From NCBI GenBank assembly GCA_027596945.1, contig JADGJH010000122.1:1-29370 (forward strand): a stretch of 29,370 nt of DNA, written 5' to 3'. The notes beneath the pieces are model-generated. The model was not told where the DNA came from. It searched no databases and saw only the letters and a list, made by a program, of their open reading frames with translations. Below, piece after piece: positions 849 to 27,618 of the stretch (positions within the stretch are counted from its first letter, which is position 1; each line of letters starts with the position of its first letter). A program made the position numbers and the translations under genes. This DNA is from Physocladia obscura (taxonomy: Eukaryota; Chytridiomycota; Chytridiomycetes; Chytridiales; Chytriomycetaceae).

Positions 849-3167
849 TCAATAGTACACCGAATCAGTACCATAGTTGCTCTGTGGATAATACGAGTCA
901 GTATTGGCCTGACCGCCATATAAGCTGGAAATTCGCGTGCTAATTCTATCCGGCCCACCACGTCTTCGTGCCGTCGAAGACGTCTCGTCTCTACTGGCAA
1001 GACAATCCAATGGCAATATCCCTTCTTTCTTTGTGTTCGTGTTGAAACCATAGGCCCACCTTTTTATATTAATTTTTTTTTTTGTCATATCATATCCATA
1101 ATTTTTTTTTTTTTTAGGTTTCTTGTACGTACCCGTCATCGTACTCATGCTTCAAAAGAACTCGATCACCAACCCTCAACGCAACTTCATCGCCATTCTG
1201 AGGTGCGAATTCGTAGACGACGAGAATCGAGCCGTCTGCCGCAACACTAGGTTGTTGTTGCTGTGGTGCCTCGTAGATGGACTCGCTGTCATAAATACTG
1301 GAAACGCGAGCTTTTTTTCCTTTTTTGGCAGCTGCGTTGTTGCTGTTGTTTGTTGTACCGTGCTCGCGTTCGTACGACGCCAAACAATCGTATGGGAAAT
1401 ATCCCGTGCGTTGGGTTGCCAGTACCGTTCCATAGCACCACCCATCGTCGAACGATTTTGAAACTAGGACGCGATCGCCGGGACCTGTCAAGCAATTTTT
1501 TTTTTGGGATTAAACTTTTTTCCTTTCTCTTGTTTTTTCGCTACATACTCAGCGAAACTTCATCCTTTCTCTCAGCATCAAACGGATAAACAGCCTCATC
1601 AGGTCCAATCTTGGCAACCTCCAACGGCTGTGACTCCATAATCGGATCATAAACTGAATTATTCGTTGCATACGTATACGTGGACTGATATTTGCTATTT
1701 GGACTGTTGTAGTCTTGAATAGACGCGGCAGCGGCAGACGGAGTCAAGTATATCGAATTTGTGTTGTTGTTATCGTAGTAGTCATTGTTTCCCCCATATA
1801 ATGACGACGATCGTTGAGAATAATCGTTTGATTTGTGGTTGTTGTTTTGCAACGGTTGCGCAAATTCTTGGAGGATTTCGATTGGAAAGTATCCTTCTTG
1901 TTTTGTTATCGTGTTGAGACCGAATGCCCATCTACGTTTCAGAAGTTTATTTGATGCCTTGATAAAATTTTTTGTCTTCATTTTGCTCGCTAATACTACA
2001 CTCTTTCCACCCATGCAATTTTCTCTTCTGCTATAGTTCGTCAATCTCGTTTTCTGCTCTCTTTTTTTTTTATTGTTGCTCACCCATGTAACCTATTTTC
2101 TTTTATTTTCATTTTCGCTGCGCTCACTGTCCTTTTTTTTGCTCGTATAAACTTACTCAAGTACAAACTTACCCATCATCATACTCCGTATTCAAAACAA
2201 TCTGATCGCCAATCGCACAATTAATCTCATCGGGATGCTGCGCCAAATAATCATACACAACGCGGTGGGACTTTTGTTGCTTCAACTGACTGCCGCCTCC
2301 AGCGTACGAACTTGCGGCACTCGTCGACGATGGAAGTGGCCTCTTGGTGAAGGCGTACGAGTCAGAAACGGTGGCGCGGGATTTCTTGCGCATGCAGCAG
2401 ACAGTGACGATGATGATAACGAGGAGGACAAAGCCACCACCCGCCGCGCCCGCGATGGTAGTGATGGAAACTGACGTGTCTGAGCTGGTTGTGCTGGTTG
2501 TATTGGATGCGGTAGCCGATGGTTGGACGGAGATTGTTGTTGTGGCTGACTGGGTGGTTGAATAGGAGCTGGTAGCAGACGAGGTTGTTGTGCTTTGGGT
2601 GGCACAGCAGGTGGCAGTCTGGGTGGCGGCACAGAAGGCCACGGCGTCGGCGGCGTCGGTGAAGCCGCAGTTGGCAGTATCCTGTGGCACGCTCGTGACG
2701 CAGCCAACGGCGTCCTGTAGCAGCGGCAGGGTGGCGTCGTATCCCGAAATGTACACCTGCAGGTTGGCCGCGTCGCCACCGTCGGGACACGAGGCGTTGT
2801 TGGCCGTCACGGCGGCCCACGAGGAGAGGAAGCTGTTCATCGTGGCGGCACACAGCGGATCCGCGCCCACGACCGCCTGGCTCGCGTTGCACGGCGTGCT
2901 GCCCGCTCCGTACTGCCCCGCGTAGTACACAAGCAGCCCGCACACTGCTGTCCGGTGGTAGCGCAGCCCCGTGCCGGTCCAGCCCGTGCAGCCCAACGCG
3001 GTCACCATCGATGACGCGAACGTGCCCGCATCCCCCGTGTCCGTCGTCACGCTCTGCTCCACGTATGCGTCAAACTCGGTCACCGATGTTGCGTTGAACG
3101 ACAGGTACCCCGTGTACCCCGCGAACGACGGGCACGACGTGCTGCCGACCAGCGAAATGCACGACAT
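849..3167 (-). CDS. Gene A: 12-Cys ectodomain, single-TM, three-SH3 membrane protein
   Basis: Four exons on the minus strand: 3167-2173, 1931-1549, 1484-1133 and 1059-849, giving 646 residues and a TGA stop. The phases (2, 1, 2) close exactly. The start ATG stands two residues before the first Cys, as in the four paralogs; no signal peptide is visible. Residues 1-190 hold 12 Cys (3, 12, 60, 76, 93, 106, 127, 156, 167, 179, 187, 188) with the GCTGWTGTGLRY motif and N-x-S/T sequons. A Ser/Thr stalk follows, then a membrane helix at about 236-258 and a basic stop (RKKSR). Three SH3 domains follow, at about 301-358, 440-500 and 550-605, each trailed by RxSS(L/I)Y. The tail ends in NTDSYY and GTDSVYY. 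Introns cut two SH3 domains at DDG|W and one before GD. Exon 1 is GC-rich and intronless in the ectodomain. The acceptor at 1060 lacks a pyrimidine tract and is the least certain junction. Family membership is clear; function is unknown (Fus1-like layout). Confidence 0.88.
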
Positions 3168-3238
3168 CTCTCTGTTTCAATTTTTTCGCGCAAATCAAAT
3201 CATGTGACCGCCAAATGACTTGCATTTAACACCTGACT

Positions 3239-3255
3239 CAACACACACACACACA
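3239..3255. repeat. (CA)n microsatellite upstream of gene A
   Basis: This is an uninterrupted CA dinucleotide run about 70 bp upstream of the gene A ATG, within the roughly 160-bp space between gene A and the stop of gene B. The promoter of gene A must lie in this short gap or inside the 3' end of gene B. I see no clear TATA box. Confidence 0.6.
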
Positions 3256-3327
3256 AACTGAATATACTTTTATGGAAACAAAAGAAGAAGAAAAATAAAT
3301 CTACCCATCTACCCCACTATAGAGAAT

Positions 3328-5275
3328 CTAATGATAGCTACGCCCAATCTGACTTGTCTCTGATTCATACAAACTGGATTCCCGATTATGATGCTTTTGG
3401 TTGTTGTGCTGCTGATACCCCACCTGCTGCTGTTCCACTGATGTATATCCATTCAAACAATCCAACGGCAACACACCCTCGCGCCCAGTATTCAAGTTTC
3501 TCCCAACACCCCATCCATCTATCAAACACATCCAAAAATTGACCATATTAGTAAATCGATCAACAAACAATAACAATATAATCTCACCATCAAATTCTTG
3601 CAATAGCTGCACCTGATCGCCAACTTTTAGCTCAATTTCATCCCTCAGTTCAGGCTCAAATCCACACATGACTATCCGCACTTTGGCAATCTTGTTGGAT
3701 CTTGCTGGCGGATTGAGCTCCATTGACAGGCGCATTATTGCAGGCTGTGGCGCCAGTGGCGACGCAGATGATGCTGGAATGACTGGAAGTGGAGATTTTG
3801 GGCCATTGGTAAGCGGGGACCTTTGTGCACTGCTACTAACGTATTCGGGCTGATATTGATGATGCTGCTGGTCTAAAATGTTTGTGGGTACCCGTGGAAC
3901 TGCTGGCACAGTTTGAATGACTGTTGTTGGCGCGCCGCGCAGTGACGAGATACGGTTTATGGACATGCCGTTGGCACTGTATGTCTCGGGTGTTGTTGCT
4001 ATTGGTGTGCTTCCTGACGGGATTGTAAATCCGCTCAAAATTCCCAACGGAAAGAATCCTTCTTCATGGGTCCTGTTATGTTGTTTCAAGTCAAATCAAG
4101 CCAATTTTACATATTCGTTGTGCCACTCGCTTTGTTGTTTTCTTTTTGTCGCTCGCTTTTCTTTACCTTGTGTTATATCCATATCCCCATCCATCATCAT
4201 ACCGCTCTTTAACAAGAAAAGTATCGCCAATCGCGGCATTCAATTCATCCATCTTCTGGGCGTAGTAACTGTAAACAACCGCATGAGCAGTCGGTTTCTT
4301 TCCCGCAGCATTCTCTCCTCTGATACTCTCATTGACACTCGGCGAGTCTTCGTCAGCTGTAGACGAATCAGCAATGCGGTTGTTTTTGGCAGTCGATTTG
4401 GCAACGGCGGCTTTGTTTTTTTTATCAGTAGCGCCAGCAGTGTACCCAGATGATTCTGTGGCGGCGGCATTTTCGTCATCTTCGGATTCAAAGTCTGAAT
4501 TTTTAGTGCGAATTCTTTTTGCTGTTTTGATACAAATGCAGATGGCAATACAGGTGAGGAGAAACACAGCGGAGCCAGCAGCACTGGCAATGACGGGAAT
4601 GGGGATGGTGTAGGCAGAGGGAGTACTTGCTGTCGTGTTTGAGTTGAGGGCTGTTGTTGTTGTCGTTGGTGTCAGGGAAGTAGAGATCTGCGACGGCACG
4701 GTCAGGAGACTACAGCACGGGTCGACGGTGCCATTGGACGAAGCGCAGTAGACGCGTTCCTCGGCGCTGGTCAGGAAGCCGCACTGTCCGCGGTCCTCGG
4801 CAAGACCCAGCAGACAGTCGTCGGCGGTGGACAGGAAGGGCGCGGCGGCCTCAAAGAAGTCGAGGTAGGCGGAGGCGGTGGACGAGGGGTCTGGACACAC
4901 GGAGGCGTTGGCCAGCAGCGCGCGGTACGAGGCAACGAAGGCCGCCAGCACGGACGCGCACATTTGAATTGGGGCACGCGCGGCCGCCATGCACGTGGTC
5001 GCGTTGCCTGTCGCGCCGCTGACAAACGCGTTGCCCACGAAGGCGGCACACAGCGCGCTCTGGTGGTAGCGCAGCCCCGCGCCCGTCCAGCCCGCGCAGC
5101 CGAACGTCGTCGTGAACGCACCGCCAAAGCTGCCGTTGACCGCAACCCCGTTCTCCACGTACGTGTCGAACGACGCCACGTCCGTGATGCCCAGCTGGCC
5201 CTCGATGTACGCCGTGTATCCCGACAAGGCCCCGCACGCCGTGCTGCCCGACAGCGAGAGGCATTGATCGCTCAT
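3328..5275 (-). CDS. Gene B: 12-Cys ectodomain, single-TM, two-SH3 membrane protein
   Basis: Three exons on the minus strand: 5275-4167, 4072-3588 and 3518-3328, giving 594 residues. The second intron (69 bp) is open in frame, so it could be misread as coding; removing it restores the SH3 core EFDDGWGVG. The 12 Cys are at 5, 14, 60, 76, 95, 106, 127, 154, 165, 177, 187 and 188, almost the same spacing as gene A. The motif GCAGWTGAGLRYHQSALC matches gene A. A Thr-rich stalk leads to a membrane helix at about 225-249, then KTAKRIRTK. SH3-1 spans about 330-388 and is split by an intron inside NTR|T; SH3-2 spans about 497-555. The linker between them is Pro-rich (SPLPVIP, PLAPQP), a possible SH3 ligand. 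The trailing motifs are RISSLR (variant) and RESSLY. The ectodomain exon is GC-rich and intronless. Gene A starts about 160 bp downstream on the same strand. Function unknown. Confidence 0.88.
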
Positions 5276-6348: not shown

Positions 6349-6939
6349 TCACACTTTCTTCTCCAATTCCGGTGCACCTCTCTCCCTATCCCATGTGTCG
6401 GCAAGGTCGGTTGAAATACCAAGAAACACGCTTGACTTTTCAAACCTGCCAGGTTTGAGTGTGCCCGACTGTAACTCCCAGACCATCATGGCAACAACAA
6501 AGAAGCCATTGCTGTCAGTCACGTTGAAGCTTTCAGCTGAACGGAAGCCGAGCTTGCCGTAGAATCTACAGTCGCCGTAGGTAATGCACGCTGCCTATCC
6601 GAGATAGTGGGCGATGGCTAAAGATTCGCGGATGAGCTGGTGGGCAATTCCCCTTCCTTGATATTCTGGGAGTGTTGCGATGAGGCCGAACGTACAAGTG
6701 TCCGAGTACGATCCGTTGGGGTGGTGCAGGACTTTGGATTTTGAAAATGCAATGCACGCAACTGGCTTATTGACAATAAAGGCGGCCAAATACAGTTCGA
6801 CAATGTGGTCTGGATGGGGCTGCAGCACGTGCAGGAGATAGTGATCGTCGGCGCCCGGCTGATACACGTTGAAGAAAGCTGAACGTGTCAGCGAAAGAAG
6901 CGCGTTCTGTTCAGTCACATCATTGGAGTTGGCGCTGTA
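6349..6939 (-). pseudogene. GNAT-family N-acetyltransferase, broken by an in-frame TAG
   Basis: The minus-strand frame from 6939 down to the TGA at 6351-6349 reads as a GNAT (Gcn5-related acyl-CoA-dependent N-acetyltransferase) core. The acetyl-CoA loop appears as LPEYQGRGIAHQLI and the later strand as YGDCRFYGKLGFR. A TAG at 6597-6595 splits the frame between these two conserved blocks. Reading simply continues in the same frame after it, and no GT donor lies close upstream of the TAG, so a short intron does not explain it. No ATG begins the upstream part. A good 3' splice site (CACTAATACG branch-like box, then ATTAG at 6941-6940) suggests a lost or unrecognised first exon; a candidate donor lies at 6989. 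The substrate cannot be read from sequence. The TAG could also be an assembly base error. Confidence 0.7.
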
Positions 6940-7173
6940 CTAATTCGTATTAGTGGCGCGTCTTTTTTGGCACTCTGTGCACAAACCACCTGATTACAAT
7001 GTCTGAACTCTTTCTTAATCAAGATTTTCAGTTCAAAATTGGATATTTTGATCTCTATATATTTTCCAAATGCGCGCTAGAGTTATACCCACAAAAAAAG
7101 AGAAAAGAGAATGGAAGAGAGGAAAGGATACGGAAAAAAAAAAAAGAAACAAAATCATATCAAAATTATATTT

Positions 7174-10100
7174 TCAGTATCCATACAGAGACGAAGTCCT
7201 GTTCTTGTTTCCTGCCTTGGCTCCAGCGTCTGCACCAAATCCAGGAAGACAATCTAATGGGAACAAACCGGATTGGTTGGTCTCAAGGTTTCGTCCTAGA
7301 TAAGGGAATTTAATTTTAGAATTTGTAGTTGCAAAAAAAAAAGAAGCATTTCACCTTCAGCCCAGCCATCTTCAAATTTCTTCTTTAATTCAATCCGATC
7401 TCCCATGCGAATATCCATTTCATCTTTCTGGGTTGGCTGGTAATCAAAAACAGCCTTTAGAACTTGTGGCGCAGCACCTCCATTACCGCCGCCACCACCA
7501 TAAGACGAAAAGTCGGCATCATAAATGGACGAAATACGTTGTTTCTGAAGCTTCTTACCGTCAGGCTTCACGGGCTTCTGCTGTCCGCCCGAAAATCCAG
7601 CTAGACAATCCAACGGCAACAACCCAGTCTGGTTTGTGGAGGTGTTAAGACCTGTACACCATCCATCGTCATACTGCTTCTTGACTTGCACTTTATCGCC
7701 CACTCGCAGTTCAATCTCATCTGCATTCTCGGGATCAAAATCTTCGGTGACAGTGTAAATGCCGTTAGTATTTGAGGCAGCAGGTGCCGTCGAAGAAACT
7801 GGCGGAACAGCCGAGTAAGAAAAGTCAGCATCGTAAATCGACGACATGCGTTGTTTCTGCAATTTTTTTCCATCAGATTTCAGTTGCTTTTGCTGCCCAC
7901 TCGTGAATTCTGAAAGACAATCTAACGGGAACAGTCCAGTTTGGTTGGTTGCTGTATTGAGACCAGTACACCACCCGTCGTCATATTTTTTCTGGACTTG
8001 AACTTTATCGCCAACGCGCAGCTCAATTTCGTCGCCATTTTCAGGATCAAAGTCTTCAGCAACTGTGTAAGTGTCAGATTTTCCAACAGCAAGTGGGGCA
8101 ACAGCGGTTGGAGCAACAGATGGTGTGTCATACGAGAAGTTTGCATCATAAATTGATGACATACGTTGTTTCTGCAACTTTTTGCCGTCAGGTTTAACAG
8201 ACTTTTGCTGTCCAGTCGCAAATGAGGATAAACAATCTAACGGCAACAATCCCGTCAAGTTTGTTGCCATGTTAACTCCTGTGCACCATCCATCATCGTA
8301 TTTTTTCGTGATTTTTACTTTATCGCCAACTCTTAATTCAATTTCGTCGCCATTCTCGGGGTCAAAGTCTTCGACAACATCATACACATCTGATTGTCCT
8401 GATTTTAGAGTAGGTACCGAAGCGGATGCAACAGGTGGGGCGGCAGAATATGAAAATTCTGCATCATAAATTGATGACATTCGTTGCTTTTGTAACTTCT
8501 TTCCATCAGGTTTAACAAGCTTCTGCTGCCCAGTTGCAAATGCCGATAAACAATCTAACGGTAACAATCCAGTTTGGTTCGTAGTTGTGTTTAATCCAGT
8601 GCACCAACCATCGTCATATTTTTTCGTGACTTTAACTTTATCACCCACTCTCAATTCAAGTTCGTCACCATTCTCAGGGTTAAAGTCTTCAACGACATCG
8701 TATACGTCAGATGCCGGCGCAACTGCTACAGCAGTCGGTGCAACCGAATTAGCTCCGTATGAAAAATCGGCATCATAAATCGACGACATGCGTTGCTTCT
8801 GTAACTTTTTTCCGTCTGGTTTAACAACTTTCTTTTGTCCAGTTGCAAACGCCGATAAACAATCTAACGGTAACAATCCTGTTTGGTTTGTTGATGTGTT
8901 TAATCCAGTGCACCAGCCATCATCGTACTGCTTCGTCACTTTAACTTTATCACCAACGCGTAACTCAATCTCGTCGCCGTTTTCAGGGTCAAAGTCTTCA
9001 ATAACATCATACACATCTGATGCCGGCGCAGCCGCAGCAGCTGCCGGTGCAACCGAATTAGCTCCGTATGAAAAATCGGCATCTTAAATCGACGACATGC
9101 GCTGCTTCTGCAACTTTTTTCCGTCGGCTTTAACAGGTTTCTGCTGTCCAGTCGCAAACTCAAATAAGCAATCCAGCGGCAAAAGTCCAGATTGATTGGT
9201 GGCCAAGTTGAGTCCCGTGCACCATCCGTCGTCATATTTCTTTGTAACTTTAACTTTGTCACCTACACGCAACTCAATTTCGTCGCCATTTTCAGGGTCA
9301 AAGTCTTCAACTACATCGAATGTGTCAGAAGCAGGTGCTGGGGCACCAACAACGGCGGCGGCAGGTAGTTTTTGCTGTTGCTGTTGACCTGGGAATTTTG
9401 GGGTAGCGGAGGAACCCATCAAACTGGAGTTACGGACGTCATGCTTCTTGACTGATCGATCCACGCAGTCAAGTGGGAAAAGTCCGGATTGATTTGTTAC
9501 TTTGTTTGTTCCAAAGCCCCACCCGTCGTCGTATTCTTCTTTCACGAGAATTGGATCGCCAACACCTAGAGAAGAGTTAATAAAAATATGTGCTCAAAAA
9601 TTTAGAAAACTGTTATGAAAAATTTTTCTGTTCTTCTTTGAGATAACTTACGAAGTTCCATTTCATCCGATTGAGAAGGATCAAAGTCTTTAATAACATT
9701 AAGGATATTTTCTCCAACTTTTGCGCCGCCGCCAGTGTTGATATTTTTATTATTGTTAACGCTCTTGTTACCCATTGGCATTGGAATCACCACTGGTGGC
9801 GGTTGAATCGGTTGCTGATTCCAAGATTGTAATTGCTGTCCCACAGGAGGACCATATAAACTTGATACACGCTTATGAAAGCCAGAATCTTGTTTTTGCC
9901 CGCCTTGAATGAATGGATCCAAGTCAATGCCCTCTAAAAGATCAAGAGGAAACTGTCCCTCCAAGCCAGTTCTGAGAGAAAAATATAAAACACAACCGCG
10001 ACAAAAAAACAACAAAAAAAAAACAGACCTAGTGTTCAATCCATAACCCCACCCATCATCATATCTGTGCTTCACAACAACGCGATCTCCCGCAAACGTC

Positions 10101-10943
10101 TGCAATTCATCAGGCTGCTGTGGCTTATAATTAAATTTCGAAACATACGTGTCCTTCTGCATTTTGGAAGGGGGCGTCGATTTTCCAATCGGCGCTGGTT
10201 GCATTTTGCTCATCGCCATATCCCCATACTGGTCGTTTCCAGTTTTGCCGTATGCTTCATCGAGTGAAAGCGTCTTCTTTTTGCGAAAGCAAAAGCAGTA
10301 TACGCAGATTGCAATAATAATGAGGGCACCAGCGCCTGCGCCTGCGTATATGTATATCATGTTGCTTGAACTCGTTGAAGAGCTGGAGGAATTGGAAGAT
10401 GCGGAGTTTGATGAAGTTGAGGCGGAGGTGGATGCAACCGTCGATCCACTCCCAGATGATGAGCTGGTCGATTGAGCTGCAGCAGAAGTGGTAGCGACTC
10501 GAAAAGCGGTGCAGCACGAATCACCGGTTGTATCAGTGCTGCAAAAACTCTGGGCTTGTGTGGCTGTGGTAAACCCTGTGAGAATAACAATGACAGAAGT
10601 GCCACAAATAAGCAAAGGAGATTGAAATTATATTTTAAAAACACACCGCAATTGTTTGCTTCAGCAGCTTCACCAACAATACACGTCGAACTGGACGACA
10701 ATGACGAAGACAGTTGGGTTAAATACGTGACGTAATTAGTAGCGGCCGTGTTCTCTCCATTCGGGCAATATGCAGTGTTTGCAAAAACGGCATTCCATGC
10801 GTTGGTGAATTTTGTGACGGTGGATTGACATACTGGGAGAATCGTGCCAGCAGGATTACATGGCGTTGCAGTATCCGTGTTGCCGATACCAAACCCAACA
10901 AGTTCGATACATAGTGCTGTTGCCTGATAACGCAATCCTGTAC
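7174..10943 (-). CDS. Gene C, left contig copy (5' truncated): SH3-array membrane protein
   Basis: Minus strand, cut by the N gap at its 5' end. Exons: 10943-10647 (partial), 10575-10029, 9971-9652, 9565-7355 and 7295-7174, ending in TGA. It carries part of the ectodomain, the Ser-rich stalk, the membrane helix (MIYIYAGAGAGALIIIAICV) and FRKKK, then nine SH3 domains. Exon 9565-7355 holds most of them without introns, in units of 103-106 residues (SH3, then VKPDGKKLQKQRMSSIYDA, then an Ala/Pro/Val-rich spacer). The last SH3 is split by a 59-bp intron, and the protein ends RTSSLYGY. A TAA at 9086-9084 replaces the Tyr codon of one RMSSIY motif; the other copy has TAC there. With the missing 5' exons taken from the right copy, the chain would be 1234 residues. 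Linker PIQPPPVVIPMP is a possible SH3 ligand. Confidence 0.82.
7355..9565 (-). repeat. Tandem array of ~309-318 bp SH3 modules in one exon
   Basis: One intronless exon of gene C contains consecutive modules of 103-106 codons. Each module encodes YxVxEDFDPEN-DEIEL, GDKVKVTKxYDDGWCTGxN, TGLLPLDCL, then the RMSSIYDA linker. Modules 3 to 8 of the protein are much more alike than modules 1, 2 and 9, which suggests recent expansion inside the exon. Such an array is also a likely cause of the assembly break at 10944. Confidence 0.85.
8553..10943. repeat. First copy of a 2391-bp direct duplication abutting the gap
   Basis: This segment matches 10954-13344 at a constant offset of 2401 bp. Identity looks essentially complete from about 9090 to 10943, including introns. 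It drops over 8553-9090, where SH3 modules with different spacer sequences face each other. The right edge of this copy is the gap itself. Confidence 0.85.
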
Positions 10944-10953
10944 NNNNNNNNNN
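10944..10953. other. Assembly gap (10 N)
   Basis: Ten unknown bases. The left flank ends inside ectodomain exon 3 of gene C, five bases after the acceptor used in the right copy. The right flank begins inside an SH3 module of the same gene. An apparent open frame runs across the Ns but joins two unrelated parts of the gene and is not real. Confidence 0.95.
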
Positions 10954-13344
10954 ATCTAACGGTAACAATCCAGTCTGATTGGTCGTTGTATTTAATCCAG
11001 TGCACCAGCCATCGTCGTATTGCTTCGTCACTTTCACTTTATCGCCAACTCGCAATTCAATTTCGTCACGGTTTTCAGGGTCAAAGTCTTCAATAACTTC
11101 ATAAATATCCGATTGCGGTGCAACTGCAGCAGCTACTGGTGCAACCGAATTAGCTCCGTATGAAAAATCGGCATCATAAATCGACGACATGCGTTGCTTC
11201 TGCAACTTTTTTCCGTCGGGTTTAACAGGTTTCTGTTGTCCAGTTGCAAACGCCGACAAACAATCTAACGGTAACAATCCTGTTTGGTTTGTTGATGTGT
11301 TTAATCCAGTGCACCAGCCATCATCGTACTGCTTCGTCACTTTAACTTTATCACCAACGCGTAACTCAATCTCGTCGCCGTTTTCAGGGTCAAAGTCTTC
11401 AATAACATCATACACATCTGATGCCGGCGCAGCCGCAGCAGCTGCCGGTGCAACCGAATTAGATCCGTATGAAAAATCGGCATCGTAAATCGACGACATG
11501 CGCTGCTTCTGCAACTTTTTTCCGTCGGCTTTAACAGGTTTCTGCTGTCCAGTCGCAAACTCAAATAAGCAATCCAGCGGCAAAAGTCCAGATTGATTGG
11601 TGGCCAAGTTGAGTCCCGTGCACCATCCGTCGTCATATTTCTTTGTAACTTTAACTTTGTCACCTACACGCAACTCAATTTCGTCGCCATTTTCAGGGTC
11701 AAAGTCTTCAACTACATCGAATGTGTCAGAAGCAGGTGCTGGGGCACCAACAACGGCGGCGGCAGGTAGTTTTTGCTGTTGCTGTTGACCTGGGAATTTT
11801 GGGGTAGCGGAGGAACCCATCAAACTGGAGTTACGGACGTCATGCTTCTTGACTGATCGATCCACGCAGTCAAGTGGGAAAAGTCCGGATTGATTTGTTA
11901 CTTTGTTTGTTCCAAAGCCCCACCCGTCGTCGTATTCTTCTTTCACGAGAATTGGATCGCCAACACCTAGAGAAGAGTTAATAAAAATATGTGCTCAAAA
12001 ATTTAGAAAACTGTTATGAAAAATTTTTCTGTTCTTCTTTGAGATAACTTACGAAGTTCCATTTCATCCGATTGAGAAGGATCAAAGTCTTTAATAACAT
12101 TAAGGATATTTTCTCCAACTTTTGCGCCGCCGCCAGTGTTGATATTTTTATTATTGTTAACGCTCTTGTTACCCATTGGCATTGGAATCACCACTGGTGG
12201 CGGTTGAATCGGTTGCTGATTCCAAGATTGTAATTGCTGTCCCACAGGAGGACCATATAAACTTGATACACGCTTATGAAAGCCAGAATCTTGTTTTTGC
12301 CCGCCTTGAATGAATGGATCCAAGTCAATGCCCTCTAAAAGATCAAGAGGAAACTGTCCCTCCAAGCCAGTTCTGAGAGAAAAATATAAAACACAACCGC
12401 GACAAAAAAACAACAAAAAAAAAACAGACCTAGTGTTCAATCCATAACCCCACCCATCATCATATCTGTGCTTCACAACAACGCGATCTCCCGCAAACGT
12501 CTGCAATTCATCAGGCTGCTGTGGCTTATAATTAAATTTCGAAACATACGTGTCCTTCTGCATTTTGGAAGGGGGCGTCGATTTTCCAATCGGCGCTGGT
12601 TGCATTTTGCTCATCGCCATATCCCCATACTGGTCGTTTCCAGTTTTGCCGTATGCTTCATCGAGTGAAAGCGTCTTCTTTTTGCGAAAGCAAAAGCAGT
12701 ATACGCAGATTGCAATAATAATGAGGGCACCAGCGCCTGCGCCTGCGTATATGTATATCATGTTGCTTGAACTCGTTGAAGAGCTGGAGGAATTGGAAGA
12801 TGCGGAGTTTGATGAAGTTGAGGCGGAGGTGGATGCAACCGTCGATCCACTCCCAGATGATGAGCTGGTCGATTGAGCTGCAGCAGAAGTGGTAGCGACT
12901 CGAAAAGCGGTGCAGCACGAATCACCGGTTGTATCAGTGCTGCAAAAACTCTGGGCTTGTGTGGCTGTGGTAAACCCTGTGAGAATAACAATGACAGAAG
13001 TGCCACAAATAAGCAAAGGAGATTGAAATTATATTTTAAAAACACACCGCAATTGTTTGCTTCAGCAGCTTCACCAACAATACACGTCGAACTGGACGAC
13101 AATGACGAAGACAGTTGGGTTAAATACGTGACGTAATTAGTAGCGGCCGTGTTCTCTCCATTCGGGCAATATGCAGTGTTTGCAAAAACGGCATTCCATG
13201 CGTTGGTGAATTTTGTGACGGTGGATTGACATACTGGGAGAATCGTGCCAGCAGGATTACATGGCGTTGCAGTATCCGTGTTGCCGATACCAAACCCAAC
13301 AAGTTCGATACATAGTGCTGTTGCCTGATAACGCAATCCTGTAC
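10954..13344. repeat. Second copy of the 2391-bp direct duplication
   Basis: Counterpart of 8553-10943 at offset 2401. Its left edge is the gap. At 13344 the match ends only because the first copy runs out of sequence. This end-to-end containment on both sides of a gap is the pattern expected from two contigs that overlap but were not merged. Confidence 0.85.
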
Positions 13345-13729
13345 CATCCCTGTTTAGTTTTGTATATGCCATGTGTGTATGTGTGTATATGTGTGTTATG
13401 AATACAGATCCCAAAATAGAAGTTTAATTAAACAATTACCAGCCAGGGCAGTTGTAATATGAGCCAACCATTGCGGCGCCAAAGTCGCTAGGGTTAGTCG
13501 TGTCATCTGAAGAAGCGGCAGTAACGTATGCGTCGAACGACGTGACGTCTGTAATGCTGCTAGTAGTAATGTATGCACTATAACCTACCGTAGTTTACAA
13601 GAGTTAAATTGCATTAGCATTCATTCAGACGGAGACATTAATTAAGCCGTAGGAGCCAATTGAATACTCACTGGCAAAATCTGGGCAGAGTGCGCTGCCC
13701 GTCAGAGGTAAGCAGTAAGGCGTTGTCAT
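10954..13729 (-). CDS. Gene C, right contig copy (3' truncated): 5' part with ectodomain
   Basis: Minus strand, from the ATG at 13729. Exons: 13729-13672, 13584-13440, 13349-13048, 12976-12430, 12372-12053 and 11966 down to the gap. Phases are 1, 2, 1, 2, 1 and all agree. The first exon encodes MTTPYCLPLTGSALCPDFA, so the protein starts four residues before the conserved C-PLTGS-C motif, with no signal peptide. Twelve ectodomain Cys are present, including W-DGTGLRYQATALC and the closing CC pair. A Ser-rich stalk leads to a membrane helix at about 241-265 and a basic stop. SH3-1 lies at about 312-370, with its intron inside NTR|T as in gene B. SH3-2 lies at about 438-495, with its intron before GD as in genes A and E. 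Three further modules follow before the Ns, and no stop interrupts them here. This is probably the same gene as the left copy. Confidence 0.85.
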
Positions 13730-14001: not shown

Positions 14002-16137
14002 TCAATTGTAGTAGACAGAATCCGTGTTGTTTCCATAATACACTGAATTAGTGTACACAGATTCCGCTCCATACATTGATGACACACGATTATTATATGT
14101 CTTTTTGCCTTGAGCGTCATATTGCTGTGCTCCATCAAATCCTTGAAGACAATCTAACGGGAATAGCCCTTCTTTGTTGATTGCCAAGTTCTTTCCTTGC
14201 GCCCATCTGTTCAATAATGAAATTAATAATGAATTTCATTAATATAAAAAAAGTAGTCAACTTTACCCATCATCATATTGGTGTTTTAATTCAACTTTAT
14301 CTCCTGCGCGTAGTTCAACTTCATCATCTTGTTCAGGTGTAAAATCGTAAACAACTTCATGGATGTTATTTTCACTACTGACGCCGCCTGGCACATAAAC
14401 GGAATCAGTGCCATATTCTGATTGCGGATAATACATTGAATCGGTGTTATTGCCGCCACCAGGTGCATAGTAAGAATCAGTATTATTGCCGCCATCATAG
14501 TATGAATCAGTATTGTTTCCACCAGGTGCATAGTACGAATCGGTATTGTTTCCACTGGCATAATAAGACTCGGTATTATTTCCACCATCATAATAAGATT
14601 CAGTATTGTTGTTTCCACTTGGGCCATACATTGATGAAACACGGTTGTTGCGATTACCATCATTGTACCCTTGAGGGCCGCTTTGGAATCTATCTAGAAT
14701 ATCAAGAGGAAATGCTCCCTCCTTCTTTGTTCTCGTATTGAATCCGTAGCCCCAGCCATCTAATTTCCATTCGATTCGGTTGAAATTGAAAAAATTTCAT
14801 TAGGAAAAATCACCAAATACAAAAAACATACCGTCGTATTCAACTTTCAAGATGATCTTATCGCCAACCATGGTACTAAGTTCATCACTAATACTGGCAG
14901 TGTAATCGTAAACGGCCTGACAAACATCTGATTGTTGCTGTTGGTTTCTTCCTGACATACCAACGGAGGGTGAGTTGGAAAAACCCATTGGGGCCGCACT
15001 CTTATTGAAGTTTTGAGTGTCTGTGTCCATTTCGTAGACCGTAGTGGCGGCTTTCTGCCGTCTCTTTCTCCAACAGCAGAATGCTATTAGGGCAATGACG
15101 ATGAGGAGTGCACCACCGCCCGCGCCGGCAATAATGGGAATTGGGAGAGAGGTGGATGAAGATGACGTGGCAGCAGTGGATGTCGAAGATGATACGGTGG
15201 AGGTGGTGGCTAAAGCCGTGTTAGTGCTTGAGGCAATGGTGGTTGTGGTGATACTGGTGGTGGTGGTGGTAGAGACGGCTGAAATAAAAGATGAGCAGCA
15301 CGACTCAGTTGCGACAGTCGTGGTTGCGCAAAACGCAGTGGCTTCAACAGCAGTCTCGAAGCCTACGACAGTCAATTGCCAGAATATCATTGGTTATTAC
15401 AATACGGTTAATAAAAAGAAAGCTGAAAGTACCGCAGTTTGCCGCGTCGACGGCCATGGATACGGTGCAAGTGGCAGCGTCGGTAGACATGTCAACTTCA
15501 ACGCCCTATTTCAAAGTATTTATTAAAATTGATTCAATACTTGATAATTGGATGCAACACCAACCTGGTACTCCGACGAAAGATCTATGGAGACTTGGGC
15601 CTCACCGTTGGGACAGAAGGCCGGGCTGGAGAGAGTTGTTGTCCACGAAGTCTCGAACTTGGAAAAGGTTGACAAACACAGCGGAAAAACGGTGCCGGCC
15701 GCAGTGCAAGCGGCCGAAGCGCCAGTAGCAACGACACCAATGCCCGATGCAATAAGATATGCGCAGTTGGAGGAACTACAATAAGAATCAGTATTGAAGT
15801 AACAGTGTCACAAGGAACGGATGACGGTTAACGGACACGAACCGGTAGTATCGCAACCCCGTGCCATCCCAGTTTGTGCAGTCATAGCCACCGGCCGATC
15901 GCACGGCGGCACCAAATGAATTCGTGTCGTTGGCCGTGTCAAATGCGTTGGCGAGGTACGCATCGAGAGACGCAGCATCAGTCACGCTGCCTGACAGTGT
16001 CGACGGAATGAACACATTGTACGCTGGATCATCAAATATCAAACATCCACCAAGCCATCGCAAAGGTGAAGGCAGCACAAACCAGCAAAATCCGAACACT
16101 GCGCTGATCCCGTCAATGGAAAGCACAGTGTCGTCAT
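14002..16137 (-). CDS. Gene D: 12-Cys ectodomain, single-TM, two-SH3 protein with Tyr-rich repeats
   Basis: Seven exons on the minus strand: 16137-16083, 16023-15843, 15775-15565, 15505-15433, 15362-14832, 14759-14267 and 14206-14002, giving 582 residues. Phases 1, 2, 0, 1, 1, 2 close exactly. It begins MTTLCFPLTGSAQCSDFA, four residues before the first Cys. All 12 Cys positions of the family are present, and NWDGTGLRYY matches the family motif. A Thr/Ser stalk is followed by a membrane helix at about 247-271 (LPIPIIAGAGGGALLIVIAL) and WRKRRQK. SH3-1 lies at about 320-378 and SH3-2 at about 482-540, each followed by RVSSMYG. Between them, residues 399-473 hold at least six repeats of GNNT(D/E)SYY, and the C-terminus ends in NTDSVYYN. 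Four ectodomain introns are present; the first and the NCG one coincide with gene C. Function unknown. Confidence 0.87.
14392..14616 (-). repeat. In-frame repeats encoding GNNT(D/E)SYY
   Basis: Within gene D, units of 8-11 codons repeat at least six times and drift into SMYY and GTDSVYV. The repeats sit on the cytoplasmic side of the predicted membrane helix. Each unit has a Tyr pair after an acidic residue and Ser. The same T-D-S-x-Y theme closes genes A and D. Confidence 0.85.
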
Positions 16138-17111: not shown

Positions 17112-17112
17112 C

Positions 17113-18744: not shown

Positions 18745-18760
18745 TCAAAATGTGTTTTTA

Positions 18761-18806
18761 TTTGTTGCACGGAAAAAATTGTTTGCATGGAAAAGATTGT
18801 GCACTC
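18761..18806 (-). repeat. Right terminal inverted repeat of the transposon
   Basis: It ends aaaagattgtgcactc, the mirror of the left end. The transposase frame opens just inside it at 18744. Confidence 0.88.
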
Positions 18807-18808
18807 TT

Positions 18809-20912: not shown

Positions 20913-21566
20913 TCATTTTCTTTCAGCAATACCAATCCAATTTCCCCATCCCACAACCTTTCCCTCACAGTCCTTTGCTAACTCTTCCCTCTTTGCGGGT
21001 AACCGCATTTTGCCTAACGGTGCATTCAACGCCACTATCTGATAGAAATATCTGCTTGACTCATCAGCTCTACAAATTAAAGCAAAAAACTTCAATTACC
21101 GATGTGGGCCATGTCCCCTCAATGGCCTCGGCGCGCCATATACAGCCCCTGTCAACGTTTGCGCATACTGAAGGCCTCCCTTCAGCTCCCCCTTCTGACC
21201 ACGTACTCTCTCTAAATCGCTTTGGGTGATTTCTATCTTGTTTGTCGGAATGTGGTAAACTGCTCCATGCAAGGCAGGAGTTGAGCCAAGTGGCGCGTCT
21301 GCGTCTTCAACCACAAGAACATATTCCACCACATCAGATGCGTTAATTGTTGGCGGAAGAGTCCATGTGAGTGTGGGGAAAAGGCCGTCTCCATCTTCAG
21401 TGTAGTTTATTTCGAATGTGGATAGGGACGGACCACAGTCTGGAGAGGTGACAAGGATGGTTGGAGTAGGGTAGGCTGCGAATGCTGGACCATTGATGAA
21501 GAGTTTTGCGTCTAATCCTCTGCTGTTTTTGACCCAGCGGGCAATTGTTCGTTCCAATGCGTCCAT
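20913..21566 (-). CDS. PEBP-family protein (phosphatidylethanolamine-binding protein-like)
   Basis: Two exons on the minus strand: 21566-21100 and 21051-20913, giving 201 residues and a TGA stop. I chose the ATG at 21566 (context ACAAAAATGG), starting MDALERTIARWV; an ATG at 21764 in the same frame would add 66 residues unlike the family. The family's ligand-pocket motifs are in order: EDADAPLG, then LHGAVYHIP, LKGG, YGAPRPLRGHGPHR, and after the 48-bp intron YFYQIVALNAPLG, ending GWGNWIGIAERK. The intron falls between Arg and Tyr of the GPHRYF block. PEBP proteins are small cytosolic proteins that bind anionic ligands or phospholipid head groups and often regulate kinases or proteases; the specific role here is unknown. 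Sequence style fits the fungal YbhB-like branch. It shares no visible function with the SH3 genes around it. Confidence 0.9.
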
Positions 21567-22730
21567 TTTTGTGTGTGAATATTTGTGAACAATTACGTGG
21601 AACTTTGAAAAATACTGACGTGGGTCAAAAAAAATTTTATATTGAATTGATCGATCGCCAAGAAGCCCGCAAACCACTCGTAATATCCAATATTTAGTCG
21701 AATAAATCGAATAGAGCATCGTGCCCGCCAATTTGTCAATTAGAAAAACACGGCTCTCTTTCATGAAAAATTTCCAAATTTAATCTACTTGATAATTTGG
21801 AAGCTTACAAAAATTCTCTGGTTTTGCAAAAATAATGAACTATTATTATGCGCTATTTACTCACAAATATGACTTATTTTCTGCAACCATTATCAACAAA
21901 GTCTTACAGCTCTGTCAGGATATGTTGGTGAATGGAGAAACCATAGTTCAGAGAATTGAGTTGTTGTACACCAGCAGATTATAGAAGCTAGTTGCTTCAA
22001 TGATGGAATCCATGTACACTGACAGTCACATTGTATAGCATAAAAGAGAGACACATGTGTGGAAGGGTGGTGAATGGGTTGGTGCTATTTTCTTTAGAAA
22101 TTTTTGGATTCATGAGAACAATAAACATGACAGTAGTAAAACTTGTAGTCATGTGGAAAAGTGTAAAACAAGAAAATTGTTGTGTGAATTTCTGAACAAC
22201 ACAAGCACACTTTGGGAATCATATATAGGAATAAACAGAAATTACTTGCAAAGTGGCATGTAAACCATGAATTTGCAAAGTGGCATGTAAACCATGAATT
22301 TGCAAAGTAGCATACAAAGACCATGAATTTTGCAAAATAATGATTTTTAAAAATAAAACTATGGGTGTGGGAAACTCAATTGCAAAACCTACAAGTTACT
22401 TCACTACAAATTTTTTGAAAGAGCTATGACTGAAATTATGAGCATTATTGAATTTTGAATACTATAGTGCATGTTTTTATACACAATGCCAACTGGATGG
22501 CAACAACTAATTTTCATCTTTACACATTATTTCAGAATGGAAATCACTGCAGATAAACTCTTTTAATTGTTGGAGCCTCTCAGCTATGATAAGAACTTAA
22601 TTAATTTTTTGTGAAAATAAGCTTACTGGATACATCTAGGCCCACTCTATTGGAATTATTCTGCTAATTTGAGTTGCAATTCATAAAATTCATGAAAAAA
22701 TTTTTTGTTATTAAAAATTTGAAGATTTGA
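21567..22730. other. Intergenic DNA between PEBP gene and gene E
   Basis: AT-rich DNA between two divergently transcribed genes, so it must hold both promoters. Apart from the 27-bp tandem repeat at 22246-22330, I see no gene or defined control element. The frame over 22057-22263 has no recognisable domain. Confidence 0.5.
22246..22330. repeat. 27-bp tandem repeat, three copies
   Basis: Units start at 22246, 22273 and 22300. The first two are identical (ttgcaaagtggcatgtaaac followed by catgaat); the third differs at several bases and has a small insertion. A further partial unit (ttttgcaaa) follows at about 22328. Confidence 0.9.
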
Positions 22731-25700
22731 ATGACAGTTGCAGGCTGTACTTCGCTCACGGGATCAACAGTGTGTGACAGCGGCTTTAGTGGTATGTAGT
22801 TAATGAGAGAACGACTAATAGGTGGGGTGGGCGAGGTAGAGCTCTGGCCGGCGGTTTGTGTCCGGTTGGAAACAGATCATGTGCCCTTCATCAAACCAAC
22901 AACCATCCATCAATCTATTATCCAGTTTCGCTGTCATATGGTGCTAACAATCAATCATATTTCGCAGAATACTATGCATGGGCTGACCCGACCGCCAATG
23001 CCTTCTCCAACGTAACCTCGTTCGATATATATATGGCCAGTTGGTTCGATACCAGCAGTGACTTTGCCAGTGAAATGGCCAATGCTTTTGGCTGCTCAAA
23101 TTGGACTGGCTCTGGCTTTCAGGTTGGTGCCCTGTATTGCGGCTTGAACTTTGCCATTTGTGTCAATGTTTAAAAAAAGATCTATAATTAGTATCACATT
23201 TCAGCGTATTGCGGCGTGTGGGCATACCTTGGATCTGCAAAAGGCTGTGCTCCATCGACTCCCTCTCCACTTTCGCCAATTTGCACAACAACAATTAACG
23301 ACTTTTATTTGTCCTGGAATAAAACGATGAATGATTCCACGATCTGTTCAACACCAACTACAGCTCAAGCCACCAAGAGAGCAGACTATATTAATTTGTT
23401 CATAGCTATAGATAACCCCTCTGCTACGTCTTCTTCGAACTGCACTGTGGCTGTATCTGTGGATTCAGCTTCCTACTGTGGATTTTCGACAACTGCTCTT
23501 GGTCAAGCTTTTTGCAACAACCAATACGATCCATGCTGCACATTGAATGGTTTAACGCAAGTTAAATCTGCGCCTGTTTCAAATGAGTCTAATTCGACAA
23601 CTTCTACTAGCACATCTGCATTTACTCAAACTCAAATTGAAATTGGCGCAGGTGTCGTTGCTGCCTTGCTGGTGGTTGTTCTCGTTTGTGTCTGTTACAC
23701 GAGACAACGAAAAAAGAATCGCGAGCCGAAAGAAAGCGAAGCTAATCTGACGTCTGCGCCATCCGTTCGTTCTGGAAACACAAATAACAACAATAATTTC
23801 AACAATAGCTACAAGGGCAACAGCTACAACAATAATTATGAAATGAACGCAAATCAGGTGCATACGCGTTTTGACTATGCACCATCTCTGTCTAACTCGC
23901 AAGGACAGTACCCGGCGACATACCCACAACAATATAACGACCACGGATCAGTATACAGCGGACAACAAAACAATATGCTACAACTTGATAGGGCTGGAAG
24001 CAGGGGTAGTGAATCGTATTACAAGTCGATCGTTCCACAGGGTAATGTCCCACCTTTGCCAAACTTGCAACTTGCACCACAATTCCTAAGACAGCAGCAA
24101 GAAAAAAAATACTGGGTTACCTTAAATTTCAGGGCTTTAAAACATGACGAAATGGAATTAAGTGAGCTGTATTTATTGTCTTTGCATCAACATTAACAAT
24201 TTAAACGCTCGAAGTTGTCGGAGATATTGTTGCTGTCAAAGAATCATACGATGATGGCTGGTGTCTTGGATCCAACCCAATGACGGGAGCATCTGGATTT
24301 TTTCCGTTAGATTGCCTTTCTGAAGTTCCAATTGGAAATGGCCCCTCAAAAGCCAAGAGCAAGTTCAACGATCGTGTTTCCAGTATTTATGGCCACGAAG
24401 GACTTGCGGATGATGGATCCTACTATGTTAAGTTTGATTATTATCCAGCAATGACTGATGAGCTGTCGCTACGAACCGGCGATCGCGCTGTTGTTTTTGA
24501 TGAATATGATGATGGGTTTGTCTTTTTTTCGTTTTTTTTTGATTTTTCTATTTATTTTTTTCTATTTCTTTGCAGATGGTGCTTTGGAGCAAATGCAATT
24601 ACGCGTGAGGAGGGTCTCTTTCCGTTGGATATTTTGGCAAACTTCGTTTCTAGAAAGTTTGCTCAAGTTACTTACAGAAAAGATAGAGGATCTTCGCTTA
24701 ATAGTAGTAATCTGAGAAAAGGTGCAGTAACCATCGGGTCAAAACCTCCTGCTACAAACAAAGCCGGGGCTGATACTTTCGAGGCAATTTATGATTTTAA
24801 CCCTGCACAGCCTGATGAGCTCACTTTGCGTGTTGGGGACCAAATTCTTGTCAAGCGCAAGTATGATGACGGGTAAATTTTGTTGTTTGTCTCTCTATCT
24901 ATTTTGAACTTTGCTTTATTTTTGCAAAATAGATGGGCATTTGGAACCAACTTGTCAAACGGCTCAGACGGTCTATTTCCTTTGGATTGTTTAGCTATGG
25001 ATTCTAAACCCCCAAGAAAACAGCGTGCTTCCTCAATTTTTGGGTCGCAAGATGACAGTAACGGAAATATTTACTCCGCATATGCCGAAAGTAACAATGG
25101 TACTGCTAAAAAAGATCCAAATAGCGACCGCGTTGTGTTCAATTATGCCCCTGAGAGACCTGATGAAATTTCTTTGACGGTTGGCGATGAAGTTATTGTA
25201 TCTCAGAAGTTTGACGATGGATGGGGTATTGGACGTAATATTTCGACTGGTCGTGAAGGAAATTTTCCTTTGGTTTGTGAATACTTGACATTTTTTTCCC
25301 TTCAGCTTTAATTGAATATCTTTGTTAATAGGATTGCCTGGCTTCATTCAGTGATCCGAATGCTGGAACCAATAATGGTTCCAAGCAAGTCAAGCAAAGA
25401 GTTTCCAGTATCTTTGAGGTCGACGCCTCAAAGACGCTCAGCACTTCAAGCGGAACTGAAAATGTGATTTACGATTATGAACCAGAAAGATCTGATGAAT
25501 TGGCGTTACGTGTTGGTGACAAGGTTATTGTTAGCCAGAAATTTGACGACGGGTAATCCAATTGAGTTTGATTTTTGGAGATAAAACTGACATAATATAT
25601 AAAAATAGATGGGCATTCGGTGTTTGTTTGTCAACTGGAGAATCAGGCAATTTTCCTCTGGTAAATTTGTTACGCAACCAAAAAAAAAAAATTAATATAA

Positions 25701-27618
25701 TTTATTTCTGCAGGATTGCCTTTCTTCATTTGCAGGTAATACTCCCAAGAAAACCAGAGCTTCAAGTATCTACGGAAATAACGAGTCAATATACGGAGAT
25801 AGACAGGCTCCTTCGACTCAATCTGCAGTAAAGCCCAATGGCCAAGACACGGCTCTATACGAATTTGCTGCTGAAAAATCTGACGAAATTTCGCTTCGAG
25901 TTGGAGATGTTGTTGTGATTGACAAGGCTTTTGACGATGGCTGGTGTTATGGAACGAATTTGACAAGTCAAAAGGAAGGATACTTCCCATTTGATTGTCT
26001 CGCTTCATACGTCAATGCAAACACTCCTAAGGACAATAAAAAGCAACGCACATCAAGTATTTACGATTCTGAGTACGGCGATAACGACACGGGCGGTGTT
26101 GAGATTGCTAAAGTCGGACCAGATGATGTTGCTGTTGCATTCACTCCCGAAAGCTCTGACGAGCTGGCACTTAGAGTTGGCGATAAAGTTGTTGTTGAAA
26201 AGGCATATGATGATGGTTGGTGCTTTGGTCGACTTGTTGTTTCGGGAAAGACAGGTTACTTCCCCTTCGACTGTTTGAAGAGTTACACTTCGAAGAGAAC
26301 CGGTGGTAAAAAGCAGCGTGTTTCCAGTGTCTATGGCACAGATAACGCAACAGGCGGTGCTGAAATCGCAAAAATCGGACAAGATGAAGCGTCGTATAGC
26401 TTTACTCCAGAAAATCCAGACGAACTGCCTTTAAGAATCGGAGAAAAGGTTGTGGTTGAAAAATCATATGACGATGGCTGGTGTTTCGGTCGAAGTTTGG
26501 CTACTGGAAAACAGGGATACTTTCCTTATGATTGCTTGAAAAGTTACCCTTCCAACAGAGCTGGTGGTAAGAAACAACGTGTTTCCAGTATCTACGGCGT
26601 GGACGAGATTTCCAGTGGGGTAGAAATCGCAAAAATCGGGCCTGATGAAGTAGCATATTCGTTCGTCCCTGAGAATTCAGATGAGCTGTCTCTGCGGGTC
26701 GGAGAAAAGCTTGTTGTTGAAAAAGCATACGACGATGGCTGGTGTTTTGGCCGAAGTTTGACGACTGGAAAGAAGGGATATTTCCCGTACGATTGCTTGA
26801 AAAGCTATCCATCAAATAGAACTGGCGAAAAGAAGCAACGTGTTTCTAGTATTTACGATGTTGAGCCAGAATTTACCGCGCCATCCCCAGCACCATCCCA
26901 ACCCAAACCTGTTCCTTCACCTGCTCCTTCACAAGCAAAAGGAAATATTGTTGTATATGCATTCGAACCAACGCACAACGATGAGATTTCTTTGCGTATA
27001 GGTGATCAAGTTGTTGTAAAACAAAAATATGATGATGGATGGGCCCTTGGTGTAAATCTCAGCTCTCGTCTTGAAGGACTTTTCCCACTAGATTGTCTTC
27101 AATTAGCGCCGACTGAAACATTACCAACGCCAAGTCAACGAATGTCCAGTATGTACGGCGCTTCTTCAAATGAAAATAGCCACAAAGTTATATACAACTT
27201 TGTACCAAGTCAAGGTGACGAACTTGCCCTGCAAGAAGGTGACCGAGTTATTATAACACGTTCATTCGATGATGGATGGAGCTATGGTATGAATGTGACA
27301 ACTGGAAAAGAAGGAAACTTCCCAAGGGATTGTTTAGAGGGTGCTTTGGTTGATCAAAGTAGCGGAAACGGGAAGCCGCAAAGAATGAGCAGCATTTATG
27401 GTGCTCAACAGAGTGAATATGGTAATTCAGTTTATGGCGGTGTACAGAGTGGGTATGGCCAGAGTGACGCCGGAAACTCAATTTATGGCGCACCAAGTGT
27501 TTATGGGGCAAATAACTCTTACTATGGACCTTCCGGAACTTATGGTCAGCAGCAACAGCAGCAACAACAGCAGCAAAATTATGGTGCAGGAGGAAATAAT
27601 CCATACTTCCGAAAGTAA
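22731..27618 (+). CDS. Gene E: 12-Cys ectodomain, single-TM protein with eleven SH3 domains
   Basis: Nine exons on the plus strand: 22731-22791, 22968-23122, 23192-24161, 24215-24515, 24576-24872, 24933-25272, 25332-25552, 25609-25660 and 25714-27618, giving 1433 residues. All phases agree. The start MTVAGCTSLTGSTVC places ATG five residues before the first Cys; no signal peptide is seen. Twelve Cys lie at 6, 15, 63, 79, 91, 103, 124, 156, 168, 180, 187 and 188. I chose the acceptor at 23192 because it restores GFQYHISAYC, matching GLRYHQSALC of gene B. The membrane helix is at about 221-241, followed by RQRKK. An Asn-rich stretch and PQGNVPPLPN precede the SH3 array (about 378-1345), and PSPAPSQPKPVPSPAPSQ separates SH3-9 from SH3-10. 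Every SH3 is followed by an RxSSxY-type motif. The tail has NSxYG repeats and a polyQ run. SH3-6 to SH3-11 share one intronless exon. Function unknown. Confidence 0.9.
26101..26883 (+). repeat. Three tandem 261-bp SH3 modules in the last exon of gene E
   Basis: Units start at 26101, 26362 and 26623, exactly 261 bp (87 codons) apart. Each encodes EIAK(I/V)G-DE, an SH3 domain, then KKQRVSS(I/V)Y. Their similarity is much higher than among other SH3 domains of the protein, indicating recent duplication in frame. Confidence 0.88.
27547..27576 (+). repeat. CAG/CAA run encoding polyglutamine
   Basis: A mixed CAG/CAA tract near the 3' end of gene E encodes ten consecutive Gln in the Tyr/Gly-rich tail. 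Mixed codons make it less prone to slippage than a pure CAG run. Confidence 0.8.

Follow-up and report, generated by a model that had tools for sequence, protein, structure and literature searches.

A candidate family of Fus1-like receptors in Physocladia obscura with repeated pairs of an SH3 domain and a ligand-like motif

The window of Physocladia obscura DNA, meaning the whole analysed stretch of 29,370 nucleotides, contained five paralogues, G1 to G5, with 3, 2, 9, 2 and 11 SH3 domains in their spliced models, giving a total of 27. Each of these 27 domains was followed 10–28 residues downstream by exactly one R-x-S-S-[ILMV] motif, and this cassette of one motif per SH3 domain is a new observation here. 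The sequences point, with about even confidence, to a chytrid family of Fus1-like receptors made of repeated SH3-plus-ligand-like cassettes, which would act as membrane scaffolds with self-complementary multivalent pairs.

Gene models and protein layout

The models of G1, G2, G4 and G5 were spliced by hand using GT-AG introns, and each was open from ATG to stop. G1 is located on the reverse strand at 849–3167 and encodes 646 amino acids with three SH3 domains in four exons (2173–3167, 1549–1931, 1133–1484 and 849–1059), the ectodomain being at 2448–3167 and the helix at 2391–2447. G2, on the same strand (3328–5275; 594 amino acids, two SH3 domains), has three exons (4167–5275, 3588–4072 and 3328–3518), with the ectodomain at 4586–5275 and the helix at 4529–4585. 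G4 (14002–16137, reverse strand) encodes 582 amino acids in seven exons with a helix at 15079–15135 and two SH3 domains, and G5 (22731–27618, forward strand) encodes 1430 amino acids in nine exons with a helix at 23642–23698 and 11 SH3 domains. The first exons of G1 and G2 both contain the ectodomain, the stalk, the helix and the start of the first SH3 domain in one stop-free frame, so that separate transcripts for ectodomain and SH3 domains, the observation that the original prediction had named as fatal to it, are excluded for these two genes. Public models P0006 and P0007 treat G1 and G2 as a single gene; this was rejected because the final tail and stop codon of G2 are identical in both copies (contigs C122 and C807) and missing at the P0006/P0007 junction. 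The public counterpart of G4, protein P0001 (HK100_001023), includes most of the gene but has another first exon. No signal-peptide exon was supported in the sequence read upstream of the ectodomain, which covered 160 bp for G1, 272 bp for G3 and up to 663 bp for G2, G4 and G5. The 160 bp before G1 hold a single hydrophobic ORF of 12 residues, the ATG of which is missing in the C807 copy, and the 272 bp before G3 just an ORF of 3 residues.

The predicted layout of a 12-Cys ectodomain, a Ser/Thr stalk, one membrane helix and an SH3 array was borne out in all five paralogues, and the variation of the cytoplasmic SH3 number from 2 to 11 among them agrees with the variable valency that had been suggested. 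Exactly 12 Cys were present N-terminal of the helix in 5/5 paralogues, and in 8/8 proteins counting those of Obelidium, Polychytrium and Chytriomyces. A full-length hydropathy scan of nine proteins gave one strong hydrophobic segment per protein, and the C-terminal flank of the helix, on the side of the SH3 domains, was net positive in 8/8 proteins. No Pfam family and no ligand was found for the ectodomain, and the sensor or adhesion role suggested earlier is hypothetical. P0009 alone had an above-threshold match to Pfam Orthoreo_P10 over the helix region (24.6 bits, cut-off 21.4), which was dropped.

G3 (7174–13729, reverse strand) is interrupted by a gap of 10 N at 10944–10953, which separates a 5′ part containing the ATG (upstream copy, 10954–13729) from a 3′ part with nine SH3 domains and one TAA at 9084–9086 (downstream copy, 7174–10943). 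The segments 8857–10943 and 11258–13344 (2,087 bp each) have two differences, at positions 9062 and 9084, the latter creating the TAA codon of the downstream copy. The fact that both duplicates stop at the gap is consistent with an artefact of assembly, and the near-identical duplication is probably of this kind. Two tandem G3 genes are not the preferred explanation, since the copies differ at two of 2,087 positions, each breaks off at the gap, and contig C947 carries one gene. The diverged G3 copy on C947, not spliced in full, has nine SH3 domains and nine motifs in open exons, so the earlier estimate of about nine for G3 was correct, and the counts of 3, 2, 2 and 11 for the other genes held in the spliced models. 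The window allele of G3 may have 10 SH3 domains. The G3 array also scored above the cut-off with Pfam Rad9_Rad53_bind (66.3 bits), a match read as a sum over SH3-like repeats.

SH3 surface and paired motifs

The arrays matched Pfam SH3_1 and SH3_9 far over the cut-off. At SH3 position 37 the window domains contain a small residue, namely Cys (13/27), Ala (7), Gly (6) or Ser (1), and at position 54 Cys (22/27), Ile (4) or Leu (1), with an aromatic residue at neither position in 27/27. In the yeast Fus1 SH3 domain both positions are Cys, while other SH3 domains have aromatic residues there, and its targets lack PxxP (PMC5823434). Judged by sequence, the window domains appear to share the Fus1-type loss of aromatics at 37 and 54, just in part as Cys. 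The cytoplasmic parts of the five window proteins contain neither class I nor class II PxxP motifs; bare PxxP was above shuffles in G2 (5 vs 1.45), and the Obelidium homologue has two class I PxxP motifs. Among solved structures, the SH3 domains of vinexin and SORBS1 resemble the window domains by sequence, and no Fus1 chain was named among the solved structures that matched.

On the reverse strand, the motifs are RISSLY (918–935), RVSSIY (1291–1308) and RSSSLY (1796–1813) in G1, RESSLY (3367–3384) and RISSLR (3937–3954) in G2, nine in the downstream copy of G3, from RVSSLY (9854–9871) to RTSSLY (7183–7200), and RVSSMY at both 14071–14088 and 14626–14643 in G4. The 11 motifs of G5 run on the forward strand from RVSSIY (24373–24390) to RMSSIY (27382–27399). 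Shuffled window proteins gave a mean of 0.05–0.15 motifs per protein and a maximum of 2. Fus1 ligands are described as R[ST][ST]SL and more broadly Rx[ST]SL (PMC5417721). The narrower pattern fits 2/27 window motifs. The residue after the two serines is Leu, as in the broader pattern, in 8/27 and Ile, Met or Val in 19/27. As a genome control, 27 other SH3 matches were used, 19 of which have an aromatic residue at position 37; the motif was present within 80 same-frame residues in 0/19, several control stretches meeting a stop or an intron before 80 residues. Six of the eight with a non-aromatic residue at position 37, C1125 among them, were without a nearby motif.

The patterns R-x-S and R-x-x-S are common for basophilic kinases, and their resemblance to the motif suggests an alternative in which it is chiefly a phosphorylation site for such a kinase, perhaps involving 14-3-3, while the SH3 domains bind other proteins and the arrays are multivalent adaptors beneath a surface receptor, with no self-ligands. 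We regard this as unlikely, though deserving of weight: Lys and Gln often precede the motif Arg, and the Tyr directly after the motif in 21/27 lies outside the published Fus1 ligand, but a kinase site need not occur once per SH3 domain, as it does here in 27/27, and the SH3 domains bear Fus1-type surface changes. Phosphorylation and SH3 binding are also compatible, and both could hold.

Conservation in other copies and genera

The occurrence of the family across other chytrids, which the original prediction had proposed to map, is indicated by homologues in four other genera, Obelidium, Entophlyctis, Chytriomyces and Polychytrium, where the SH3-motif pairing holds in 7/7 SH3 domains. Members from the first three have two SH3 domains and that from Polychytrium one. 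Between G4 and Entophlyctis the motif core is identical in 10/10 residues, compared to 78% for the SH3 domains and 43% for the linker; the corresponding values between G2 and Obelidium are 9/10, 71% and 28%. G3 and its C947 copy have roughly 83% DNA identity, with 95% identity in the SH3 domains, 34/35 in the motif and 79% in the linker. A motif that in every case follows its own SH3 domain and is conserved as much or more could be a structural tail folded on that domain, making the cassettes closed inert beads and the arrays spacers. This is decidedly doubtful, as a spacing of 10–28 residues through poorly conserved linkers is unlike a fixed extension, and cis binding would be a special case of the scaffold explanation. 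It is very improbable that the long arrays arose by neutral expansion of repeats and that the two-SH3 form alone is functionally important, because the C947 copy retains nine cassettes at the above DNA identity, even though two SH3 domains are found in the Obelidium, Entophlyctis and Chytriomyces members and, in an SH3-unit tree where most forks were weak, G3 units 3–8 (96/59) and G5 units 7–9 (98/93) clustered by gene.

Second copies of the window genes elsewhere in the genome have 81–84% identity and may derive from a doubled whole genome. A GNAT-like stretch also has a second copy at 83%, and the genome search gave no second copy of the PEBP-like stretch or of the flank gene on C929. Profile search A2 had P0004 and P0005 among the matches listed; P0005, a sponge protein (E 1.5e-3), was dropped as a chance or odd match. 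The cassette, the G3 gap duplication, the diverged second copies and the homologues in four chytrid genera all extend beyond the original prediction.

Proposed scaffold and comparison with known systems

In the scaffold explanation the proteins would be oriented N-out/C-in, with the cassette of one SH3 domain and one R-x-S-S-[ILMV] present 2–11 times in each window protein and once in that of Polychytrium. The SH3 domains would bind these peptides in their own and neighbouring chains, and clustering of the ectodomains would cross-link the cytoplasmic regions into a patch. The strength of this patch would grow with repeat number and could be weakened if basophilic kinases phosphorylated the serines of the motifs. 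If the analogy with yeast Fus1 holds, such a patch would mark sites of polarity or fusion, such as the tips of rhizoids or places where rhizoids anastomose. More tentatively, the proteins could be natural self-complementary sticker arrays with a non-proline ligand for every SH3 domain, forming a genetically tunable cortical gel, possibly at rhizoid tips or sites of fusion. As each SH3 domain of such an array carries its own ligand, valency (1 to 11) would be set by duplicating one cassette.

If the scaffold explanation is true, the Fus1 mode of SH3 recognition familiar from mating yeast would reach early-diverging fungi, and the presence of a ligand with each copy would give a reason why the SH3 domain could be multiplied. 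It would also become possible to test valency-driven membrane assembly with individual natural proteins that differ stepwise in length. The family would also provide concrete candidates for the driver of chytrid rhizoid fusion, posed as an open question in PMC10512372.

Several known systems share single features with the window proteins. The Sho1 osmosensor is described with four membrane spans (PMC4411306), and a Sho1-type identity was rejected on the one hydrophobic segment per protein. P0006, P0007 and P0008 are publicly labelled "Sorbin and SH3 domain-containing protein", but a Pfam scan at E 0.01 found no Sorb (SoHo) domain in them; unlike SORBS proteins, the window proteins have one helix and an ectodomain in place of this domain. 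Human intersectins have five tandem SH3 domains and DNMBP/Tuba six (PMC10453029). These are GEFs with other domains, whereas the window proteins combine up to 11 SH3 domains with a helix and ectodomain in one chain. In CIN85, phosphorylation is reported to modulate the contact of an SH3 domain with a motif of the same chain, and, as in the CIN85/SLP65 SH3-motif condensates described there (PMC10786037), the window proteins contain several SH3 domains and short motifs that may pair within or between chains. The CIN85 motifs are proline-rich, while those of the window are not, are matched one to one with SH3 domains in number and order and belong to a membrane-anchored chain.

The closest comparison is with Saccharomyces cerevisiae Fus1, described as a one-pass, O-glycosylated plasma-membrane protein (PMC3718343). 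Judged against its published features, the window proteins resemble Fus1 in having a Ser/Thr stalk, one helix and non-aromatic residues at positions 37 and 54. To our knowledge the 12-Cys ectodomain is absent from Fus1. Unlike Fus1, with its one SH3 domain, the window proteins have 2–11, with a ligand-like motif after each. The likeness to Fus1 goes deeper than had been predicted, as Fus1-type changes of the SH3 surface occur beside Fus1-type ligand-like motifs.

Gene models and second copies

The five window genes (G1 to G5) were modelled by hand splicing at GT-AG junctions, which gave open and complete models for G1, G2, G4 (reverse strand) and G5 (forward strand). The conserved Trp of the SH3 domains was repeatedly preceded by an intron (YDDG^W), placing introns within the domain. 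A single exon of G1, and likewise of G2, encodes the ectodomain, the stalk and the helix together with the beginning of the first SH3. The combined layout of these two genes is therefore independent of splicing. The public annotation fuses G2 and G1 (849-5275) as 'Sorbin and SH3 domain-containing protein 2' (P0006), and P0007 is the same fusion for the copy on contig C807. Between the genes, stretches resembling an N-acetyltransferase (GNAT-like, 6349-6939, apparently with a broken frame) and a phosphatidylethanolamine-binding-like protein (PEBP-like, 21096-21779) were named by reading the translation, not by family search.

An N10 gap breaks the G3 model. The stretches 8857-10943 and 11258-13344 differ by 2 mismatches in 2,087 positions and both end at the gap; this near-identical duplication is read as an assembly artefact. 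Of the two copies, the one downstream contains 9 SH3 with a single in-frame TAA (9084-9086); the ATG lies in the upstream copy, which is cut by the gap within its fifth SH3. The counterpart on C947, ~81-83% identical, is a single gene with 9 SH3, 9 motifs and open exons.

All five genes are duplicated elsewhere in the genome (21.76 Mb, 1,222 contigs) at a DNA identity of ~81-84%, with second copies of G1 and G2 on C807, of G3 and G4 on C947, and of G5 on C929, whose end truncates the gene to its 5' part. Across C807, C947, C929 and C1007 this identity (~81-84%) includes the introns and extends to the GNAT-like stretch, but no second copy of the PEBP-like stretch was found; the pattern may reflect a hybrid genome, high heterozygosity or segmental duplication. 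The ectodomain is also similar in two paralogues that are more distant and have one SH3 each, on C320 (tail RRSSLHY) and C1125 (Cys37, Cys54 and RRESR, the motif not being intact). C497 encodes a helix-like stretch followed by SH3 segments with RESSL and RSSSL in between.

Homologues and evolution of the arrays

Protein searches, relying on shared words and a length filter, matched P0001, P0006 and P0007 within Physocladia itself. Homologues among the matches listed came from Entophlyctis luteolus (P0002, partial, and P0008), Obelidium mucronatum (P0003), and Chytriomyces hyalinus (P0009, a 14-sequence cluster). A further one, from Polychytrium aggregatum (P0004, E 4.9e-3), has the layout of the window genes. 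A sponge protein (P0005, E 1.5e-3) was dropped as a chance or odd match. No Pfam family covered the ectodomain in the sequences scanned.

In a tree of 34 SH3 units over 55 columns (15 of 31 inner branches drawn open), the juxtamembrane SH3s of G1-G4 clustered with their Obelidium, Entophlyctis and Chytriomyces counterparts (96/82), G2 pairing with Obelidium and G4 with Entophlyctis, and units 3-8 of G3 (96/59) and 7-9 of G5 (98/93) formed within-gene clusters. These groupings place the origin of some paralogues before the three genera, with the long arrays resembling later expansions of the downstream cassette. The ancestral form may have been like the one-SH3 Polychytrium protein.

The SH3-plus-motif cassette

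Each SH3 was scored for the residue after Trp36 (position 37), the residue three after Pro51 (position 54) and an R-x-[ST]-S-[ILMV] motif before the next SH3, with G3 taken once, from its downstream copy. Exactly one motif followed each of the 27 window SH3s, 10-28 residues past the domain end, compared with a mean of 0.05-0.15 motifs per protein (maximum 2) in shuffles of the window proteins. The R, S and S were constant in 27/27, followed by Ile (15), Leu (8), Met (3) or Val (1) and then by Tyr (21), Phe (2) or four others including the G3 stop. The motif accompanied 7/7 homologue SH3s, P0008 having one additional RSTSV in its ectodomain, and 4/5 SH3s of the fused P0007, the fifth being found in DNA beyond the junction. 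The motif core was conserved while the linker drifted, with identities of 10/10 vs 43% (G4/Entophlyctis), 9/10 vs 28% (G2/Obelidium), 34/35 vs 79% (G3/C947), 15/15 vs 89% (G1/C807) and 14/15 vs 77% (G5 units 6-8/C929).

The genome gave 69 SH3 matches, 33 belonging to the family (C122, the window's contig, C947 and C929) and 27 read as a control that leaves out nine (C882:5216, two on C232, and C94, C748, C472, C561, C389 and C85). Position 37 was aromatic in 19/27 control SH3s, and in none of these 19 did an in-frame motif occur within 80 residues, a zero weakened by several reads that ended at stops or introns. The motif was present for 2 of the 8 with non-aromatic 37 (C320, C497). SH3s on C1078 (L013), C738 and C4, also with a non-aromatic 37, lack an in-frame motif over 80 residues; they may be partners that bind the motif in other proteins.

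Topology and comparison with yeast Fus1

Each protein has one hydrophobic segment with a positive C-terminal side, so the SH3s are cytoplasmic by predicted topology. The Polychytrium homologue starts with a signal-peptide-like stretch. None of the five window models contains a signal peptide, their ATG (3167, 5275, 13729, 16137 on the reverse and 22731 on the forward strand) lying 1-5 residues ahead of the first ectodomain Cys. The nearby upstream sequence showed no conserved signal exon. The window proteins may insert N-out by the helix itself; yeast Fus1 is likewise not known to have a cleaved signal.

Neither the family nor a one-to-one array of SH3s and own ligands was described by title or abstract in the open-licence literature searched. 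Chytrid anastomosis is described as rare and probably tied to sexual reproduction, its driver being posed as a question (PMC10512372). Class I and class II PxxP motifs were absent from the cytoplasmic parts of G1-G5; the Obelidium homologue has two of class I, and bare PxxP in G2 exceeded the shuffle level (5 vs 1.45).

Fus1 is described as an O-glycosylated protein with one membrane pass, found both at the mating tip and at the site of fusion (PMC3718343), and the ligands of its SH3 are given as R[ST][ST]SL or, more broadly, Rx[ST]SL (PMC5417721). The Fus1 SH3 carries Cys at positions 37 and 54, which are aromatic in other SH3s, and its targets lack PxxP (PMC5823434). Matched to Fus1 through the Trp36 and Pro51 landmarks rather than by aligning Fus1, positions 37 and 54 are both non-aromatic in 27/27 window SH3s (Cys37 in 13, Cys54 in 22). 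Eight of the 27 window motifs match Rx[ST]SL and two match R[ST][ST]SL, whereas 19 differ from the Fus1 ligand in ending with Ile, Met or Val. By this analogy, we propose that the family could form a Fus1-like cortical scaffold carrying putative self-ligands.
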